This document shows positions 16,816 through 64,000 of a stretch of 64,000 nucleotides of DNA, one piece after another (the first letter of the stretch is position 1; the number at the start of each line of letters is the position of its first letter). The position numbers and the translations under genes are program-made. The notes under the pieces were generated by a model that was not told where the DNA came from, did no database searches, and worked only from the letters and a program-made list of their open reading frames with translations. The DNA lies in NCBI RefSeq assembly GCF_037392515.1, contig NC_090280.1:60587504-60651503 (forward strand), written 5' to 3'. The DNA comes from Haliotis asinina (lineage: Eukaryota; Mollusca; Gastropoda; Lepetellida; Haliotidae).

Positions 16816-17137
16816 CTCATTTATCATACAGTCACCACTTTGTCACAATTTAAAATCGTCAATTTTCACTTTTTACTCGATACGTTTCCACCTCCCCTTG
16901 TTTTCTGTCGCTTTCAAGAACTGTAATTCTGTGAAGTAGATTAGAAATGGGAAAGTGTCCAAGTTTCACTCACTGTACCAAATACGTTTCCCTATGTTTT
17001 GGGAGTAAAACGAACTGCTCAGGACACATGCGATAAACAAACTTGGATATTGTCTTGACTTTCTATCAAAATCGTAACTCACCCACCTTTTGGTGTTTAT
17101 TTTCCAGATAGTAAGTTTGTCAGATGAAAAGGGCAAG

Positions 17138-19291
17138 ATGAAAAGACTCCAGCGCCCTCAGAGTTTGGTGGTCGTTACTGCACTATTTTCTTTCGTGATG
17201 GCTTCCACTACACCTCTGCCGCTGCAGAAGATCATGGACTGTCATACTGGGTGTAGATGTAGACAGCTCAAAAACGTAACGATTGACATGCGCTGCCGTG
17301 GATTAAACTTAACAGGGAAGCCATTGCCGACGCCCCCACCACAGTCCAACAGTTTGAATACAAGCATTTGTCTGGAGAATGGGACAATTCCTGAACTCTC
17401 GAACAACACCCTACTGGTGTACTCTCGGTATCGGATTGTATTTCTCAGTCTGAAAAATAACACAATTGTACACACAGACAAGAATGCCTTCAGCAGCTTG
17501 ATGCATTTGCAAACGCTTGACCTGTCAGAGAACTTCATTGCCGAAGATGATCTGAAGAAATCGTTTTACGGAATGGCCAAGACGCCCATAAAAGAACTGA
17601 ATATTAGCTCTATGAATCTTACGAATGTTTCAGATGATTTCTTTCGACATCTACAAAATGTTCCAAACTTTCGACTTATTTTTCGAAACAACACCAGTGA
17701 GTTCCCACTGAATGCTCTTCAGGCAATAAGGCAAATGACCAGTCTTGACTTTGGTGGAAATCGTTTAAAACGCATAGATTTGAGAAATGCCACCTTTCCA
17801 CTTCTTCAAAGTCTTGATTTTAATAACAATCGTTTTTATGAGTTTCCAGATTTTTGCAGCAGTAATACATTCCCAAATCTTAAATACCTGTCTGTTCAGT
17901 GGAATGGTATGAGATATTTAGACAGGAACCATTACAGCTGTTTAAAGAACCTCACTAACTTTCACTTAAATGGTAATCTTTTTCCAGAGCTAAAGTCAAA
18001 TCAATTTTCCATGTTGCCAAGCATATTCAGAATTACCTTGTCTTATGTTGCGTGTGCAATGCACACTGTGGAGAGAGCCGTGTTCAATAATTCGGCACTA
18101 AAACAAATATTCTTTCGTAAGAATCGTATTTGGTTCAGAGAAGCTGAGATAAATATGCAGATTTTTGAAGGATGTTCTTCTTTGGAACTTTTGGATCTCA
18201 ATGACAATATTTTCCAAGTAACCACAGAATCGGAATATACTACTTTGCTTGGAGACCTCACCACCCTGAAGACTTTGGTCATGGGTGGTAATGGCATGCG
18301 TTTTATACCACACGTAATAACGTCGAAATTAACAAACATCACGAGTCTTGCTCTGTATCGGAACTCCATTTCGGACCTAAAGCCAAACACGTTTGAAAAT
18401 ATGACAAGTTTGAACAAATTATTCTTGGGAAATAATGAAATCTCAACGATTAATGAACAATCCCTTCCGAAAACTCTGAAACAGCTTGAGTTATATGGGA
18501 ACCCATTTTCTTGTACATGTGCCATGGTGTGGCTTATAGACTGGATGCATAAAGAACCAAAAACATTTGGTATTTCAGGCAAATATCAATTTTGGTATAA
18601 CTGTTCCAGTCCCATGAACCTAAAAGGGGTTCACTTGCTTGATTTGAAAATGTCAAAGACAAGTTGTCTGATGGATCATGATGTGAAAATCGCAACTCTT
18701 ACCTTTAGTATTTTACTGATAGTGTTCCTGGTGACAGGAACGTGGATGTATCGTTACCGATGGCACATCCGATACTTCATCTACATGGTCAGATACAGTC
18801 AACGTCAGGAGGTGGACACCGGTGAATACGAATATGACGCATTTGTGGCTTACTGTGCGGGAGATCGTCATTGGGTCATTCGTAACATGTTGCCGGTTCT
18901 GGAAGGCAGTGAAAATCTGAAACTCTGCGTCCATGACAGGGACTTTGAAGTTGGTAAATTAATCGTTGATAATATTGTGGATGCAATAGAAGCAAGCCGG
19001 AAAATAGTCATCGTCCTCTCTAACAGTTTTGCCGAAAGTGACTGGTGCCAGTTTGAGCTCAATCTCATCCAGCGTCATGTGCTGGAGAATGGACAGCGCC
19101 TCCTGCTAGTGGTCATGCTGGAGGAGATAGACACACGTCACGTGACCAAAGCTATGAGAGCCATGTTGCAGACGACAACCTACCTGATGTGGGGAGAGGA
19201 AGATTATGCTAGAAAAGCCTTCTTCAACAGACTGAGGATGTTGCTTCGCAGTCCAACCAGAGATGCAGGGAACAGACGGCTATCAGTTTAG
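17138..19291 (+). CDS. Toll-like receptor (LRR-TM-TIR)
   Basis: This intact 717-residue type I receptor is encoded by one coding exon. It senses microbial or endogenous ligands at the membrane and would signal through MyD88-type adaptors. A signal peptide follows the start (MKRLQRPQSLVVVTALFSF). I chose the ATG at 17138 because a splice acceptor, TTTTCCAG, ends at 17107, so the earlier in-frame ATG at 17090 would be intronic. Leucine-rich repeats fill residues about 90-450 (for example LTSLNKLFLGNNEIS-like units). A cysteine-rich C-terminal cap begins at NPFSCTCAMVWL (about 453-505). One transmembrane helix spans about 516-538. The TIR domain, about 563-700, has box 1 YDAFVAYC, box 2 RDFEVGK and box 3 AFFNRL. 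There is only one C-terminal cap, as in vertebrate-type (single-cysteine-cluster) TLRs. The BB-loop proline is replaced by valine. No paralogue lies nearby. The family is certain, but the subfamily is not. Confidence 0.93.
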   Translation: MKRLQRPQSLVVVTALFSFVMASTTPLPLQKIMDCHTGCRCRQLKNVTIDMRCRGLNLTGKPLPTPPPQSNSLNTSICLENGTIPELSNNTLLVYSRYRIVFLSLKNNTIVHTDKNAFSSLMHLQTLDLSENFIAEDDLKKSFYGMAKTPIKELNISSMNLTNVSDDFFRHLQNVPNFRLIFRNNTSEFPLNALQAIRQMTSLDFGGNRLKRIDLRNATFPLLQSLDFNNNRFYEFPDFCSSNTFPNLKYLSVQWNGMRYLDRNHYSCLKNLTNFHLNGNLFPELKSNQFSMLPSIFRITLSYVACAMHTVERAVFNNSALKQIFFRKNRIWFREAEINMQIFEGCSSLELLDLNDNIFQVTTESEYTTLLGDLTTLKTLVMGGNGMRFIPHVITSKLTNITSLALYRNSISDLKPNTFENMTSLNKLFLGNNEISTINEQSLPKTLKQLELYGNPFSCTCAMVWLIDWMHKEPKTFGISGKYQFWYNCSSPMNLKGVHLLDLKMSKTSCLMDHDVKIATLTFSILLIVFLVTGTWMYRYRWHIRYFIYMVRYSQRQEVDTGEYEYDAFVAYCAGDRHWVIRNMLPVLEGSENLKLCVHDRDFEVGKLIVDNIVDAIEASRKIVIVLSNSFAESDWCQFELNLIQRHVLENGQRLLLVVMLEEIDTRHVTKAMRAMLQTTTYLMWGEEDYARKAFFNRLRMLLRSPTRDAGNRRLSV

Positions 19292-40524: not shown

Positions 40525-43500
40525 CTAGTCTATATTGGTCTGGACTTCATCCTTGTGTTGGACACTGTACATTTTATTGTAAACTTTGCCATTGAAAGAG
40601 ATGACTGGACTAGGGACCACTGCGAGACCTCCATGACTCAAGCTCTCTTTGTAGCACTGTGCAATGTGACGGTTTCCGACTGACATCTCCTCATGGTTTA
40701 TGTACTCATCCAGCTGCAACAGGAGATGTACAGGTGTACTCAACATCTGGTGTAAAAAGATGTTGCAGGTGTTCTCAACATCTGGTGAAAAGAAAGGCTA
40801 CTGGTGTACTTAACATCTGGTGTAAAGAAAGGCTACAGGTGTACTCAACATCTGGTGCAAAAAGACATGCAGGTGTACTCAACATCTGGTGTAAAGAAAG
40901 GCCACAGGTGTACCCAACGTCTGGTACAAAAAGAAGATGCAGGTGTACTCAACATCTGGTGTAAAGAAAGGCCACAGATGCACTTAACAGCTGGTGTAAA
41001 CAAAGGCTGCTGGTGTACTCAACATCTTATGGAAAGGATGGCTACAGGTGTACTCAACATCTGGAGTAAAAAGAGGTTGCAGGTGTTCTCAACATCTGAT
41101 GTAAAGAAAGGCTACAGATGTACTTAAAATTTGGAGTAAAGGAAGGCTAAAATAGTACTTAAGATCTGGTGTAAAAGGCTAAGTTGTACTCAACATCTGG
41201 TGTAAGGGAAAGCTACATGTGTACTCAAAATCTGGTGTAAAGAAAGGTTTCAACTGGACTCAACATCTGTTATCTAGCCTCATGTAAGAATGTCAAGCTT
41301 TGATTGGTCCGCGTGACTCTGATAAAATACCATGGACATCCATCACGATCGAGCTGGAGTGTAAAAGTCGTGTACTCCCGCTACGAAAGCCACATCACCC
41401 CGCTATGCCTCGGTGAAGACGCGAAGTGAGAAAAGCGTGCATCGACAAGCCTTTAGTAACATGTGTTGCATTGAGGTCAAACAATCAGCTGGTGTCAACA
41501 GGGCAGCAAGTTGATTCGATGCGTGTTGTTTTGTTTTGAGTTAGTGAAAACATTCAGCTAGATAAATGCGAGCCTCCTTGGGGAATACAACCTTACGAGA
41601 GATTGATAAAACCCTGTATTTCCCGAGACACGATGTGATAACTTCTAGTGTAAAGGAAGGCTTCTGGAATACTCATAATAAACTGAAGAACAAAACAAAT
41701 GCAACATCCGAAAAAATGGACTGTCAGTTTTTATCATAGAAGTAAGAATACATGTTTATGTCTACTATTTAAAAAACTTGACCAAAAAAATCCTGGTTGC
41801 ATTTCTTTTGCTGTTCAGCATATAACTAGCACCTTACATAAAGAAAGACTTCAGGGGTACTCACGTATTACCAGGATCTGTGTAAGGGAAGGCTACAGGC
41901 TACAGGCTACAGGTCTTGATACAATAATTGCAATGCTTAATGCCCTGTCCTCTCACACAAAAGAAACAAGCACAGTTCACTAGTTGGATAGTGAGGAAGG
42001 TGCCTTGACAAACTATCAAATAAACATTTCTCACGTACATCCATCCACTGACACTTGGCGATCTCATGCTGACAGGGCTTAAGGTCGTCACTGCTGGGTC
42101 TCATCACGCAGACGAAGTAGATGTCGGAGCAGCCGTAGCGGTAGTTATGCTGGTGACGGAAAGTCAGTATCGACTCAAACTCGCACTCTATACCCGTTTC
42201 CTCAAACACCTCTCGCTTAGCTGTCTCGCCAATGTCTTCCCCTGTTCAACAATAATATTGACCATGTAGAGGGAGAAAATGCGTAGATAGTGGAGCTAGA
42301 GTCTTAATGATTGTGTCACTCTTCATTTGAGTGAGTGTGTGTGTGAGTTTAGTTTGCTGACTCACAGTATTCCTGTTATATGGCAGAGGTCCGTCAATAT
42401 ACAGTGATCAGCATGAACATTAATCTAAGCAGCTGGATACAATGAATTGCTTCATTTGAGGCCATAATGAATTCATTATTAGATATAAATCCCAGCCTGC
42501 CCTGAATGCTACTGAACTTTTATTACTATCAAACAAGAAATCTACCATGTCCACCTGCCTAACATACCTCTACCTGCATGTTCACCTGTCTGATATACCT
42601 TTACCTGCCTGTCCACCTGTCTGACATACCTTAACTTGCATGTTCACCTATCTGATATACCTTAACCTGTATGTCCACCTGTCTAACATACCTTTACCTG
42701 CATGTCCATCTGATATACCTTTACCTGCATGTCCACCTGTCTGACATATCTGCATGTCCACCTGTCTGATATACATTTACCTGCGTGTCCACCTGTCTGA
42801 CATACCTTTATCTGCATGTCCATCTGGCCGACATCTGTGTGTTCAGTGTATCCCTGTATGATATACATTTACCTGTATGTCCACCTGGCTGACATATCTG
42901 TGTGTTCAGTGTATCCCTGTATGATATACATTTACCTGCATGTCCACCTGTCTAACATACCTTTATCTGCATGTCCATTTGGCTGACATCTGTGTGTTCA
43001 GTGTATCCCTGTATGATATACATTTACCTGTATGTCCTTCTGGCTGACATATCTGTGTGTTCAGTGTATCCCTCTCTGATATACATTTACCTGCATGTCC
43101 AACTGTCTGACATACCTTTATCTGCATGTCCACCTGGCTGACATATCTGCGTGTTCAGTGTATCCCTGTATGATATACATTTACCTGCATGTCCACCTAC
43201 CTGACATACCTTTACCTGCATGTCCATCTGATATACCTTTACCTGCGTGTCCACCTGGCTGACATATCTGTGTGTTCAGTGTATCCCTGTATGCTATACA
43301 TTTACCTGCGTGTCCACCTGTCTGACATACCTTTATCTGCATGTCCATCTGATATACCTTTACCTGCGTGTCCACCTGGCTGACATATCTGTGTGTTCAG
43401 TGTATCCCTGTATGCTATACATTTATCTGCATGTCCACCTGTCTGACATACCTTTATCTGCATGTCCATCTGATATACCTTTACCTGTGTGTCCACCTGG

Positions 43501-46500
43501 CTGACATATCTGTGTGTTCAGTGTATCCCTGTATGCTATACATTTACCTGCATGTCCACCTGTCTGACATACCTTTATCTGCATGTCCATCTGATATACC
43601 TTTACCTGCATCTCCACCTGTCTGACATATCTGCATGTCCACCTGTCTGACATACATTTACCTGCATGTCCACCTGTCTGACATACCTTTATCTGCATGT
43701 CCTCCTGACTGACATACCTGTGTGTTCAGTGTATCCCTGTATGACATACATTTACCTGTATGTCCACCTATCTGACATACCTTTATCTGCATGTCCATCT
43801 GATATACCTTTACCTGCATGTCCACCTGTCTGACATATCTGCATGTCCACCTGTATGATATACCTTTACCTGCATGTCCACCTGTCTGACATATCTGCAT
43901 GTCCACCTGTATGATATACATTTACCTGTGTGTCCACCTGTCTGACATATCTGCGTGTCCACCTGTATGACATACATTTACCTGTGTGTCCACCTGTCTG
44001 ACATACCTTTATCTGCATGTCCACCTGGCTGACATATCTGTGTGTTCAGTGTATCCCTGTATGATAATACATTTACCTGCATGTCCACCTATCTGACATA
44101 CCTTTATCTGCATGTCCACCAGGAAGTTTCCAGTGTGGCCGACTTTGGAACCTCTCCTGTATTGCCAGTACCTGGTTCCTGCTATTGACTACAAACCCAC
44201 CAACACCTGGATGAGCAAGAACAATGCAGAAATTAAATCTTAGCTACAATCAATGTCTCACGTTACATTTGGGATTATTTTTCTTCATACTAAATAACTG
44301 GTTCACAAATATGTCATCTGACTGTGGTTGATTCCCATATAATTGCCTTGGACTGTGATTGATTCCCATGTAATTGCCTTGCCCAAGCTGTATTTGCTGT
44401 TGTTCATAATCCAAAAATATATTTTGCCACACGTAATAGTGAGTGAGTTAATATTTAAAGACACATTGGCAATGCCACCTAATAACAGACAGGTGTTACC
44501 TCACTACCTGATAATAGAATGGGTGGGGTCAGTGTTATATTTTTGGCACTAATGATGATAATGTCTTTCACATCATTATCAAAATGAAACAAAGTGAGCG
44601 TTTGCCTTCAATCATATGATAAAAATCTACTGATCCAGTGATCAATATTGTGAGCACAATTCAGCTCAATCTACGACATATCAACCATGACACTGAGACA
44701 ATGATCTATTTGTTTGAGACAAAGAATTTCAGAATGGAGAAGCACCTACCAATATACTGGTTGGCATACTCTGGCAGATTGTTGGGTTCATCTGCTGGCA
44801 GCCACACACTCATCATCACGTATCCTGGTTGGGCATGGTGGAAGTCAAACCCCAGCTGCAAACAGTGTCACAGTTTCAAGTTGACTCTAAGCACAGAAGT
44901 TTGATTTACATAAACCATTGAAATGTTTCAACATTGAGTCAGATGAGTCAATACAGGATTTAAGTGAGGCAGTATAGGATTTGAGTGGGCCAGTATGGGA
45001 TCTGAGAGGGACAATACATGATTTGAGTCATCTATGCATGATTTATGTAGGCAATACAATGTCCAAGAGGAGTGAGTGAGTGAGTTTAGTTTTACGCCGC
45101 ACTCAGCAATATTCCAGCCATATGGTGGCGGTCTGTAAATAATCGAGTCTGGACCAAACAATCCAGTGATCAACAAAATTAGCATCGATCTGAACAACTG
45201 AGAACTGATGACATGTGTCAACCAAGTCAGCGAGTCTGACCACCCGATCCTGTTAGTTGCCTCGTACGAGAAGCATAGTTGCCTTTTATGGTGTCCAAGA
45301 GGAAGGCAATTGTAACCCAATGTGTTTGACTCCATGATCCATTTAATCACTTCCTACAAACAGAGGGCACTGTATTACCTTGACAAGCATCGGCACCAGT
45401 GACGTCTGCTGTAAGCTGATCTTAATCCATACGCCTCGGACCTTGTTTGTCCGCCACTCAGTCAGAGCAGCTGTAGAGAGACACACAGATGTGCATAATT
45501 AGTTGTTTGTTTGATATTAACCAGCACACTCAGCTATATCCCAGCTATACAAACCAGCTAAACACAGCAATATATCCCAGCTACACTCAGCAATATTCCA
45601 GCTACATGACACTGGTCTGTGAGTAAGAGAATCCAGTGATTGACTGACATCATGAGCACTGATCATCACATTCCACCAGTCACTTGAAACATCGATTGTT
45701 GAAGCCCAGTTCTAAACCAGATTAAGACTTCAGTGGATTAAAGAAATTACTTTGATATTTTTACTTACTTTGGTAGTCTAGTTTATTACAAAGGGAGTAA
45801 AAAATTAGATTTTACATTCACCTTCAAGATTCTGGATAAGTTCTTCATCACTGGCAAAGGTTTGATCACTGACATTGAATGTGATACTATTAAACCTGCA
45901 AGTAATAGCAAGTGAGTGAGTGAGTATAGTAATATGCCACAAGCAGCTATATGTGGCAGTCTATAAATAAATAAATCTGGACCAGACAATCCCATGATCA
46001 AAAGCATGAGTATTGATCTGTGAACTGGGAACTGATGACATGTCAACTAAGTTAGCACGCCTGACCACGTGATCCCATTAGTCACTCAGTCGCCTCTTAT
46101 GACAAGCCTAGTTGCCTTTTGTGGCAAGCACGGTTTGCTGTAGACCTATTCTATCCCAGATCCTCACAGGTTGAATAACAATACATGAGTGAGTGAGTGA
46201 GTGAGTTTAGTTTTACGTCGCACTTAGCAATATTACAGCTATATGGCGACGGTCTGTAAATAATCGAGTCTGGACCAGACAATCCAGTGATCAACAACAT
46301 GAGCATCGATCTGCGCAATGGGGAACCAATGACATGTGTCAACCAAGTCAGCTAGTCTGACCACCCGATCCCGTTAGTCGCCTCTTACGAACAATACATG
46401 AAGTTGCATGGAGAGTTACAGATGGGCACCAATTCTTAGAAATAATTTAAAGAACTACTTATTAACTAGCTCATGACAGCAAATTTCTTGTGACCTCATG

Positions 46501-48225: not shown

Positions 48226-49910
48226 CTATTCTTCTTTAATCCTTTTCATTTCTTGCTTGAAAGCTCTTTTCAGTTCAAGTTTCTCATTTGTCTTCTTCTT
48301 TTTCTGTATTCTTCGTTTCGTTTCCTCCCTGCGTTGCATCATCTGGAAGCTGTTTTCCCCATTTATCAGCAGATCTAGTCTGTCCCGTAGTTTCAGCCTT
48401 GCTGTGCGTCTGTTGGTGTCCAGAGATCGGGATTCATGGCTCTACAATTGAACACAGTGATTTGACTTATCATGGGTTGAAATCCTGAATGGAACTCAAC
48501 CTAAAAAACTGCTAGAACTAGGGGTATAATGGTATAGCATGGTATTAGTAGAATCGAGGTATTTTGCCTCCTGTGTGGTATACTGTAACGCAACAGAAAA
48601 TTCGGTATTTCCTGTTTTTGTACTGTCATTTTATTAACTTTTTAAAAAATGTCTAAAAATCAAATCATTTTGTCAAAGTCTATGCATATCAATGCAAGGC
48701 GGTCACTATTTTCCTGGAAGTAAGTTATCATATCTCATATACACAGAAAAGAAACGAACTGAACTGAAGGTCTTGTACAGCAATTTGTAATGTAACGTTG
48801 CGTGGTAAGAGAGCAGAACTAGAACTTGTAATCTACTAAGGAAGTGTAATCCCAAATGTAACATATCGAAATGATCATGATTAATATCAAGTCCATAATA
48901 TCACCTTAAATCATATAAAATGAAATCTGGTTTGTTCAACATTTTGTTTATGAGGTGGTTTCTGAAGTGACTTCACTCAGTGAAGATAGGAATTACATGA
49001 TAATATAATACTGGAAAGACATCCATGTGTTTCTTTGTTTGGGGGTGGTGGGGGTAGCCTAGTGGTTAAAGCGTTGGCTCATCAATCTGAATACTGGGGT
49101 TTGATTCTCCACATGGGTACTATGTGTGAAGCCAATTTCTGGAGTCCTCTGCCATGATATTGATGGAATATTGCTAAAAGTGGCATAAAACCAACTTCAC
49201 TCACCTACTTACTGCATCCTACTTACTGCATAGTACTTATCACAAGATAGGAGTACAGAATGCGTTTTAGGTAGGCCAAAGGCATAATACATGATACATG
49301 ATACATGATACATAAAATAGCCCTCAGCATAGCAGTGTTCACTCATCACACCGAAGACCGAGGTTTGATTTTCCATATATGGGTACAATGTGTAAAGCCC
49401 ATTCTGGAGTCCACCATCGTGACAGACACTACTGGAATATTGTTATAAGCAGCATATAGTCATACTGACTCACTACTCTGCACTCACCTTCACAACAATC
49501 CCTGTAGGCAAGTGTTTGAGCACCACACAGTTGGCAGTCTTGTTGACCGCTTGACCTCCCGGGCCGCTGCCACGGACATACTGCTCCTCCAACTCACCCT
49601 CGTCCACAACAGGAAACTGGTAATCTTTCTGTGACACATAGCTTCGTAATGGGGCACTGACAGTCAAAATCTTCCTAAAATTTCCTCTGCTGTGCAAATG
49701 ACCTATATCTTGGCCCTCTGTGTTGAGAAACTTAATCTGTTGAGAAGGTGCTTTCAAGGTTGACAGGTGTGATGAGAGTGATCTGTTTTGCTGACACAAC
49801 ACTGTTAAGAGTTTCTTCAGTGTCCCTTGTGTTGATTTTGGAATGAGGAAAGGGTGGATAATCCATTGATTAACTTGATGAGCTACTGACATGGTATGGA
49901 ACATGTGCAT
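48226..49910 (-). CDS. MTRFR: MTRFR, mitochondrial rescue factor (2 exons)
   Basis: MTRFR (C12orf65) is a mitochondrial class I release-factor relative that helps rescue stalled mitoribosomes. Coding exons 49910-49488 and 48441-48226 join in phase 0 to about 212 residues (human 166). The release-factor domain shows [20 protein letters not shown] (GGQ at about 118-120), then [18 protein letters not shown]. The second exon continues [18 protein letters not shown], matching human CHQTRSVDQNRKLARKIL, and reaches NGENS. It ends in a lysine-rich tail typical of the family. The residues before about 90 would hold a mitochondrial targeting signal. The start is uncertain: an in-frame TAA lies seven codons upstream of the first ATG (49910), and a later ATG at 49892 (MSVAHQ) is also possible. 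The gene is divergent from MPHOSPH9. Confidence 0.92.
49045..49205 (+). mobile_element. tRNA-headed SINE in MTRFR intron
   Basis: GGTAGCCTAGTGGTTAAAGC (A box), GGTTTGATTCTCC (B box) and the tail GTGGCATAAAACCAACTTCA are clear. Confidence 0.8.
49325..49475 (+). mobile_element. tRNA-headed SINE, degenerate
   Basis: CACACCGAAGACCGAGGTTT and GGGTACAATGTGTAAAGCCC match the body of the family. It ends about 12 bp from the MTRFR exon 1 donor. Confidence 0.65.
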
Positions 49911-52900
49911 ACTTATTGGTACTACTTACTTGATTTCTGAACCACTGACAGAATCTGGAACGAAACGGACAAGTAATCAGTGGGTGTGGCCACATGGAGT
50001 AACACTAGCGTGAAAAGGGTCGTTGTTGTCATGGTTACAGCAGATATGTAGGATTGGCTAAAAAGATTGATAATCAAACATAGTGTTGACAGTAAACATT
50101 ATTAGTGTTTATTGCCATGAAAATTGTGTTATCAATAATACTGTACATTATGTTTTGTGATATAAAACTTTTCTCACACAACATATGTATATATTTAGAA
50201 CTTGATTCATGGTCTGCTTCTAATTCATGTTCAAGATGCTGTTTTGTTAAAAATCCATCCAAAAACATTTCACAACTCACCAGTGAAGGGAAACATATTC
50301 ATTTCTTCAAGATATTTGTTTGCATTTTTGCTCTAGGTTACGGCTCCGATATTTATCAATCAATATTTAGTGAATGATTGTGATCTCTATCAATAGCCCC
50401 ACTGGTATGTACCCCAGGTATGTTAAAAAAATTAGAACATAGAAATGTATCCTTGGACATGTGCAGTCTCCAGCGTTTTCTGGATTGGGACTCTCATACT
50501 TTTGTATGAGATGAATTCCATTGAACAAATTAGCATACACAAGGACAATACATTGTATTTCACAATGCACAGTATCTCTTGAGATCAGACAAAATAATGA
50601 TAATATTGCCCGGTTTTTGTTTTTGAATGAGGAATACTGACTGGTCTGCAATTCAGGATAGCACTTACATTTCTATATTTTAACCTTTTTTAGGAGTAGT
50701 GTTGGTGTCAACAATGACCCCTTCAGATGAAGTGACTTTTAAAATGAGTTGATTACTCCTTATTCATTGATGAGGGTCGGCTGTTGTTTAGCACTCAGCA
50801 GTATTCCAGCTATATGGTGATCACTGATGAGGGTCATAATTAGGAGGGGTTGACTCAGGAAAACTTGACTAAAGAGATAAACATTACAGCTGACCATTTT
50901 GAAGTGCTTAGATATAGGTATGCTTGCCTTGACTTCTATTAATGGTTTTGGTGTATTGCCCCCTGTGTCTTAAAGTTGGCACGTACATTGTCACGCCACA
51001 AGTGTCTAAAATTTAACTTTAGAGGCCACTGTATACCTGTCTGAACTCTCTGAGTGGATGACCTTCCAACAGGAAGTAGCATTACACGTGAGTGAGTTGA
51101 TCGTTTTGTAATGTTGCAAAGACAATAAGTTCCCCTTTCTCAGTTATTACAACTACGTAAATAAGTTAATATCAATTTTACGGAACGAAATAGCATCAAC
51201 GTGACAAGATCTACATGATATATAGGTTAAACAAAATATTTTTGATTTACGACACCACAGCTCGCGTCTTATACTGGCGACCCCCGCCGCATCAGTGCGC
51301 AAGTATCAACAGGAAACGTAAATCTGAACTTTGTTGACGAATGGTTTGTGTGAAACAGAACGGATTTATATCGGAATTAGTTACAGTTACCGGAATTAGA
51401 CAGCAAGGATCTTGACTGGTCGTGGGACATCCTTGCCGTAAGTATTGTTCACACATAATTTCATAGCGTGTTATTGAAGCAAAATGTACTTTTGTTTTGC
51501 ACGAACCCGGCAACAGCGTCCAACTAATTTCTCATTCACCACAATGTCAGTGAGAAGCAAAAACTATATGATAATGATGTTAAAGAGACCCGTCAGAAAA
51601 AACCCTCTAGTTGTCTCTAGTTGTTTGCTGCTTTATTAATGTTCCATTTATAAATATATGAAAATGTGAATCTCTTTTTTCTGTCGAATATGTGTACACG
51701 TATATTTTTGAAAACCACTACAGTTCGTGTTTGTTTTTCTTCATAGTACGTAGCCGTCCTAATCTCGATCAATCTCGACAATGAGGTCACATATCTCCTT
51801 CAAAAGACCACTTCTCGAGGGATTAGTTGCCGAGTTTTTGATTTATTCGGTTGGCATTCGCTGGGTATTTCAGGTTAACAAGGTGTTTAATTTACTTAAC
51901 TGAAGGGCTGATATATGGACCTGCTAGTCATGACCATACATGTACACAGTCTTTAAGTTGTTCAACTCCAGTTCCTTTCTTAGTGATCTGATTATGTTGG
52001 CTTGCTTTCTTATTGCACATACATGATGATTTAGAGACAGATTGTTAATAGTTCATGCGTTAGTGGACAGTGTTAGATATACAAACGATGAAAGGTGATT
52101 ATGAGGGGTTAGGTTGGTGGAATTTTTATTTAGGTTCCTTTTGAAACTTCATTTAATATCATTAGAGCTCATGATGAACATGATGAAGATCCTTTCACTT
52201 TCAGGCTGAATTCCTGTCTCATGATGTTCATGATGTTAGTGATCTGATTATGTTGGCTTACTTTCTTATTGCACATACATGATGATTTAGAGACAGATTG
52301 TTAATAGTTCATGTGTTAGTGGACAGTGTTAGATATACAAATGATGAAAGGTGACCATGAGGTCTTAGGTCGGTGGAATTTTTACTTACTAATTTTGAGC
52401 TCATGATTAAGATCCTTTCGCTTTCAGGCTGAATTCCTGTCCCATGATGTTCAAAACCTGTCACTGTAGTGCATGTAAACACTGTAATTATGTATGGCTT
52501 GTTTAGACACATCATACCTGGTAATCATGTCCATCATTTCTGGTAACTGAGTGTCATCTTTGTATATTGTGAAAGCTGTAATTAATGGCTTGTACACCAC
52601 CATAAATATTATTTTATCAATGTGATATCTGTGATAGCTAAGGCACGTCCAAATGACATTGTCAAATAAACATAATAAATTAAATAGATGGTTCGGTCCT
52701 GTAAAAGTGGTCATGCTGATATTTAATGAACACTGTTTCATCACCATAGTTGTTTATTTTGGTTATAGAAATCTTGCACAGCATCATCTTCTGTAATGAG
52801 TATGACAGAGATGGGTTATTAAGCTTGTTAAAATGTAAAAAGTCTATAAAAGTTCTTCTTTAATAATAAAAGTTCTTCAGAAATCTCAAAAAGTTTTAAC

Positions 52901-63625: not shown

Positions 63626-63730
63626 ACAAACACATTATTAGGCACAGTAGTTTATTACACTATGGGATTCAATGACTTCAGTCGCATACTAGCATTTCCA
63701 ACAATACACATTCAAAACACAACAATATCT

Positions 63731-64000
63731 GTAACAGTAACTCACTTTATCATTATGTCAAGAAAGCCAGAAGTTTTGCCAGCCACAGACGACTTCCTCC
63801 CTCCCTTTTGGAGAGGATCGCGGTGATGATCCATCTTGCGTGAACAGGTTTCATCACACTTATTCTCAAGTCTCTGTAACAGTAACTCACTTTATCATTA
63901 TGTCAAGAAAGCCAGAAGTTTTGCCAGCCACAGACGACTTCCTCCCTCCCTTTTGGAGAGGATCGCGGTGATGATCCATCTTGCGTGAACAGGTTTCATC
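63731..64000 (+). repeat. Perfect 145-bp tandem repeat at window edge
   Basis: 63731-63855 and 63876-64000 are identical over 125 bp, and the window ends inside the second unit. The unit starts GTAACAGTAACTCACTTTAT and includes GGAGAGGATCGCGGTGATGA. It may be the start of a longer satellite or an assembly duplication. Confidence 0.92.

Follow-up and report, generated by a model that had tools for sequence, protein, structure and literature searches.

Minisatellites which span a splice junction are known from three human genes. In CBS, a 31-bp variable number tandem repeat (VNTR) bears the name c.1444_1467+7(16_21), with 16–21 units, and is variable in people (PMC2630376). We take this name to mean the last 24 bases of the exon and the first 7 of the intron, hence one donor per unit. 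A table row of one source places it at "exon 13-intron 13" (PMC1395315), and another source places it at the exon 13/intron 13 boundary, though it is termed non-coding there (PMC5188458). In ABCA7, the VNTR of intron 18 has a 25-bp unit which includes the exon-18 donor, and about 12 to 427 units. According to the same source, use of the decoy one unit down leads to an out-of-frame 25-bp retention, subject to nonsense-mediated decay; exon 19 skipping rises with array length, while use of the decoy donor is constant (PMC5954066). In IFI6 (6-16), tandem units of a minisatellite serve as splice donors behind an exon (PMC4526556, and the title of Turri 1995, cited there). Here we describe a 31-bp minisatellite of the mollusc Haliotis asinina, found in a stretch of 64,000 nucleotides (contig NC_090280.1, positions 60,587,504 to 60,651,503; from here on, the window). 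It fills most of an intron in a Nudix hydrolase gene, and its first unit includes the end of the preceding exon with its donor.

This array is a true case of the known kind, a splice-junction-spanning minisatellite. It abuts an exon, and its unit, within the 10–60 bp range, holds the splice site of that exon. As in the CBS form, the unit also contains exon bases: 19 nt, which code for GGHADK plus one base. An earlier note on this DNA knew of no description of a minisatellite seeded from the edge of a catalytic-motif exon. As a claim of novelty this fails, because the architecture is already in print for CBS, ABCA7 and IFI6. A catalytic-motif exon edge as the seed is not named in the literature searched, which was covered by titles and abstract openings.

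The exon edge and its array

The Nudix hydrolase gene is found on the minus strand of the window, as are all the features of this gene described below. The exon which borders the array (exon 5 in the earlier note) lies at 44102-44206. Its translation, GVGGFVVNSRNQVLAIQERFQSRPHWKLPGGHADK, closes with ...WKLPGGHADK and a single further base, and the frame continues into GEDIGETAKREVFEETG, the start of the next exon (42039-42241, ends read by hand), which codes for the remainder of the Nudix box. The intron between both exons, also read by hand from the translation-based exon limits, extends from 42242 to 44101 (1,860 nt). The Nudix box follows the motif G-x5-E-x7-REUxEExGU. In the joined translation, it is present across the exon junction as G-HADKG-E-DIGETAK-REVFEETGI, and four joined exons match PF00293 with an E value of 6e-24.

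In the earlier note the gene is called NUDT6. It matches human NUDT6 (E 2e-29) and Arabidopsis Nudix hydrolase 7 (E 4e-30) about equally well. Two near-alike loci elsewhere (L040 and L041, G000:C2) contain the C-terminal part of a protein closer to human NUDT6 than the window gene is (E 2e-34 for this C2 paralogue, of which the C-terminal part alone was read). Because of both comparisons, NUDT6 appears to be a loose name for the window gene.

The minisatellite occupies positions 42546-44120 and is detected by Tandem Repeats Finder as 31 bp x 52.3. It accounts for 1,556 of the 1,860 intron bases (84%), plus 19 exon bases. Unit parsing, for which the anchors were set by hand, gives 52 units of 25–32 nt and one partial distal unit (GGTGGACATG, 42546-42555), unlike the sequence beyond, where the array ends. 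The units fall in five classes, named by eye: exon-like, GCAGGTAAATGTATATCATACA-bearing, 32-nt (GGGATACACTGAACACACAGATATGTCAGCCA), 25-nt and 27-nt. Four of these classes in series form a 121-bp higher-order repeat along much of the array (42859-43702, x 7.0 by Tandem Repeats Finder).

The first unit (44090-44120) lies across the exon/intron junction, with 19 coding and 12 intron nucleotides; the true donor, AAAG/GTATGT, is at 44101. The exon side of this unit is the last 19 nt of the exon, GGTGGACATGCAGATAAAG (44102-44120). The 26-mer at the junction (44095-44120; on the minus strand GGTGGACATGCAGATAAAG/GTATGTC) has two exact repeats, 44000-44025 and 43109-43134, and six further copies with one mismatch each. 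When the exon-edge 31-nt unit is compared with the unit consensus, a score of 27 is obtained. No control reaches this score (0 of 20,792, best 24), the controls being minus-strand 31-mers taken at every third position, with starts outside the array. The similarity breaks off sharply 19 nt inside the exon, at GGT; the adjoining 31 nt upstream score 1. These results agree with the earlier description of copies of the junction, of an intron side made of related units, partly arranged in a 121-bp repeat, and of GGHADK as the coding content of 19 of the 26 bases.

The array unit appears to be confined to this locus. A pattern search of the whole genome (1.14 Gb), which allowed at most 3 mismatches in 29 nt, gave 28 matches, all 28 of them inside the array, and the reversed control gave 0. 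When 441 nt of the array served as the query of a DNA search, all 6 matches fell at this locus, though such a search skips simple repeats and very common words. Thus neither search found the unit at a second locus. The same array at unrelated loci lacking the exon, which the earlier note had named as evidence that would speak against an exon origin, was not found by either of them.

We consider this array an ordinary intronic minisatellite, whose founding segment chanced to straddle an exon-intron junction, with a probability of roughly 0.8. A 31-nt segment with 19 coding and 12 intron nucleotides would have been duplicated in tandem, and the extra intronic copies would then have expanded by slippage or unequal exchange, up to 52 units with a 121-bp higher-order repeat. 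The intronic copies would be free to drift into classes, and the copy at the exon end would be held by the coding sequence and by the requirement for a donor. The transcript would present the true donor first, followed by 14 decoys which are equal or slightly better, and splicing would normally pick the first one.

Decoy donors

The claim that the sense strand of the array would present a row of decoy donors (AAAG/GTATGT) is supported by the scores of its GT dinucleotides, which were obtained with an approximate donor matrix. The true donor, AAG/GTATGT, scores 5.8. Fourteen of the 129 sense-strand GTs in the array, found between 42629 and 44006, score at least as high: 2 are higher and 12 are the identical 9-mer AAGGTATGT. 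On the antisense strand, none of the 135 GTs reaches the score of the true donor. There are also 13 weaker decoys, CAGGTAAAT, with a score of 5.0 versus 5.8. Each of the 14 strong decoys, if used, would read into a TAA located 26 nt into the intron (frames were computed for these 14). Because all of them meet this stop codon, the product of decoy use would be truncated or degraded, and the first donor should normally be chosen.

Alternative readings

Which copy is the source was judged within one assembly. The exon is the best reading, as far as sequence comparison can tell, because of protein homology: the Nudix glycine lies at the same distance from the glutamate as in the Arabidopsis and human relatives, which would not be expected from a random unit. 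The earlier argument, that the 19 coding bases are constrained by function, holds for this glycine and for the spacing, but not for the rest. The relatives, aligned without gaps, have an identical glycine-to-glutamate spacing, but opposite the GGHADK region they read TGVINEGED (Arabidopsis) and GGLSEPEED (human). HADK and even the first glycine are variable, therefore the functional constraint covers only part of the 19 bases. What protein homology does fix is the length and frame of the exon, together with the Nudix glycine.

The opposite order of events has also been considered: an intronic minisatellite would have reached the exon, and its edge unit would have become the exon end through a donor shift. 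The unit tree leaves room for this. It contains too few columns to be rooted, and only 3 of its 33 inner branches are well supported. The exon copy appears as a zero-length tip in an unresolved fork, therefore it is not a late derived member, and its nearest relatives among the 51 other units of at least 25 nt are units 3, 11 and 33, with 1 difference each. The five distal 31-nt units (42556-42710) have a consensus, made by eye, which is two substitutions in 31 positions away from the exon copy, and this closeness favours the exon as the source. Position 30 has C for T in 4 of these 5 units, and position 14, which is in the Asp codon, has G in all five and A in the exon. Two points weigh against the exon as the founder. 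Because of position 14, an exon founder requires that either the array changed early or the exon changed later, and on the tree alone either state may be ancestral. In addition, gene conversion between exon and array could also make the exon copy look central. On the other hand, the exon end agrees with the Nudix box of the Arabidopsis and human relatives in length, reading frame, glycine and spacing, which a random 31-mer would not be expected to provide, and neither genome search showed a second locus. This order of events is therefore highly improbable. The earlier view of the exon as the likely source and the array as its derivative is favoured by the homology, by the anchoring of the array at the exon edge and by its single location; what the tree adds is limited, as it cannot be rooted and position 14 is ambiguous. 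Selection might also keep the array as a set of decoy 5' splice sites, for example as U1-binding sites which regulate splicing or early polyadenylation. The donor-like sites are strongly biased by strand, with 14 in sense and none in antisense orientation, which speaks for such a function, but this bias follows from the unit itself, and the classes mostly without a good donor are equally uniform: six units are identical in the 32-nt class and four in the 25-nt class. We regard this reading as very improbable.

A further alternative is that minisatellites of this genome are founded preferentially at splice junctions, both acceptors and donors, compared with other intron sequence, for instance via breakage linked to transcription or splicing. 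The array in the window would then belong to a class of decoy-splice-site arrays, together with two acceptor-copying arrays detected in a survey. In this survey, 50 loci around Nudix and kinase exons (L040-L089) were taken, of which 32 were kept as independent and 18 were dropped as duplicates or parts of the window. Acceptor arrays were identified from repeat positions and by eye, so loci with exon ends far from the match could be missed. They were found at 2 of the 32 loci outside the window (L087 and L046), one of them clearly with coding sequence. At the observed array density (15 in 111.5 kb), random seeding would, by a rough hand calculation, give well under one such case, but the survey is small, post hoc and partly by eye, and how many junctions the 32 loci contain is a guess. 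The share of sequence taken up by arrays is 4.6% in the window and 6.1% in the 32 loci. Word counts over the whole genome, with reversed words as controls, give no sign of a splice-site preference in seeding; they are crude, since only perfect words are counted and a few large arrays rule the numbers. The donor word AGGTAAGT, three-fold at minisatellite spacing, has 586 matches versus 657 for the reversed word, and a hand count among the matches listed gives 13 loci in about 244 Mb versus 13 in about 175 Mb. The acceptor word is in excess (74 versus 19 matches, 16 versus 5 loci), but single words already stand at 8 to 1 in 175.5 kb. The evidence on preferred seeding in this genome is mixed and mostly against, and we consider such a preference rather unlikely.

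Other junction arrays and comparison with known systems

The clearer of the two acceptor arrays precedes a kinase exon (L087:1033-1404, G000:C4; 65 bp x 5.7). Its units reproduce the acceptor together with some 32 nt of coding sequence: CTTTTTCAG and part of the kinase exon (NKYYDDIIPE; the acceptor is placed from the frame). The match scores 20, the background best is 13 and none of 25,593 stretches aligns equally well. The other array (L046:1006-1514, G000:C9; 33 bp x 15.5) lies directly before a further Nudix exon (GLVDKGETPEETAVRELHEETG), and its units carry the acceptor of this exon. The acceptor side agrees at 17 of 19 intron bases and the exon side is weaker (9 of 14), a match equalled by 153 of 42,662 background stretches. 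At this locus, the reading frame through array and exon is open for 228 amino acids.

Other arrays close to acceptors do not show such copying. The following intron of the window gene contains a 35-bp minisatellite (40729-41269), which ends 16 nt before the next exon. We have rejected it as a copy of the acceptor edge of that exon, as many control stretches score equally: local alignment of the exon edge is equalled by 709 of 8,954 minus-strand and 783 of 9,137 plus-strand stretches, and in-phase global alignment by 6,175 of 20,889 controls. The arrays at L053 and L054 stop short of the acceptor, with no copying detected by eye. A different situation is found at L081, where repeats are located inside a long open frame (1,034 amino acids).

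Other features of the window include an open frame of 737 amino acids at 17078-19291 that encodes leucine-rich repeats together with a TIR domain (Toll-like receptor kind), another at 49473-49925 that encodes an RF-1 (peptide release factor) domain, and, at the window end (63728-64000), two tandem 145-bp copies which match at 100%.

With this locus, an architecture described for three human genes, among them ABCA7 with its link to Alzheimer's disease, is extended to an invertebrate, a mollusc. Coding constraint suggests which copy is the original. Tandem identical donors, or acceptors at L046 and L087, with a penalty for the wrong choice, would provide a natural way to test how equal sites are ranked by the splicing machinery. 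The more interesting question is whether junctions seed arrays above chance in this genome.

Several described repeats resemble parts of this picture. In abalones, a 27-bp minisatellite in intron 3 of a TSSK1-like gene of Haliotis discus hannai varies between individuals (PMC6905558); it is also intronic, but exon-edge copying is not described for it in that source. The human CBS 844ins68 resembles the acceptor arrays at L046 and L087, though it is a single duplication and not an array. Splicing strongly favours its more distal copy, which leads to normal mRNA; its sites are called splice donors in the text that describes them (PMC2630376), but are acceptors by position. Among the donor arrays, the ABCA7 VNTR also flanks an exon and contains its donor, but its unit, as described, begins at the donor GT and has no coding bases. 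IFI6 has donor-bearing tandem units behind an exon; two units located downstream serve as donors, from which additional mRNAs arise, whereas all 14 decoys in the Haliotis gene would meet a stop. The CBS VNTR, with a 31-bp unit across an exon-intron junction, has the same form as the array described here. It differs in having 16–21 units, whereas the one assembly of Haliotis asinina shows 52, divided into classes and partly arranged in a 121-bp higher-order repeat, with half a Nudix motif as the coding part.
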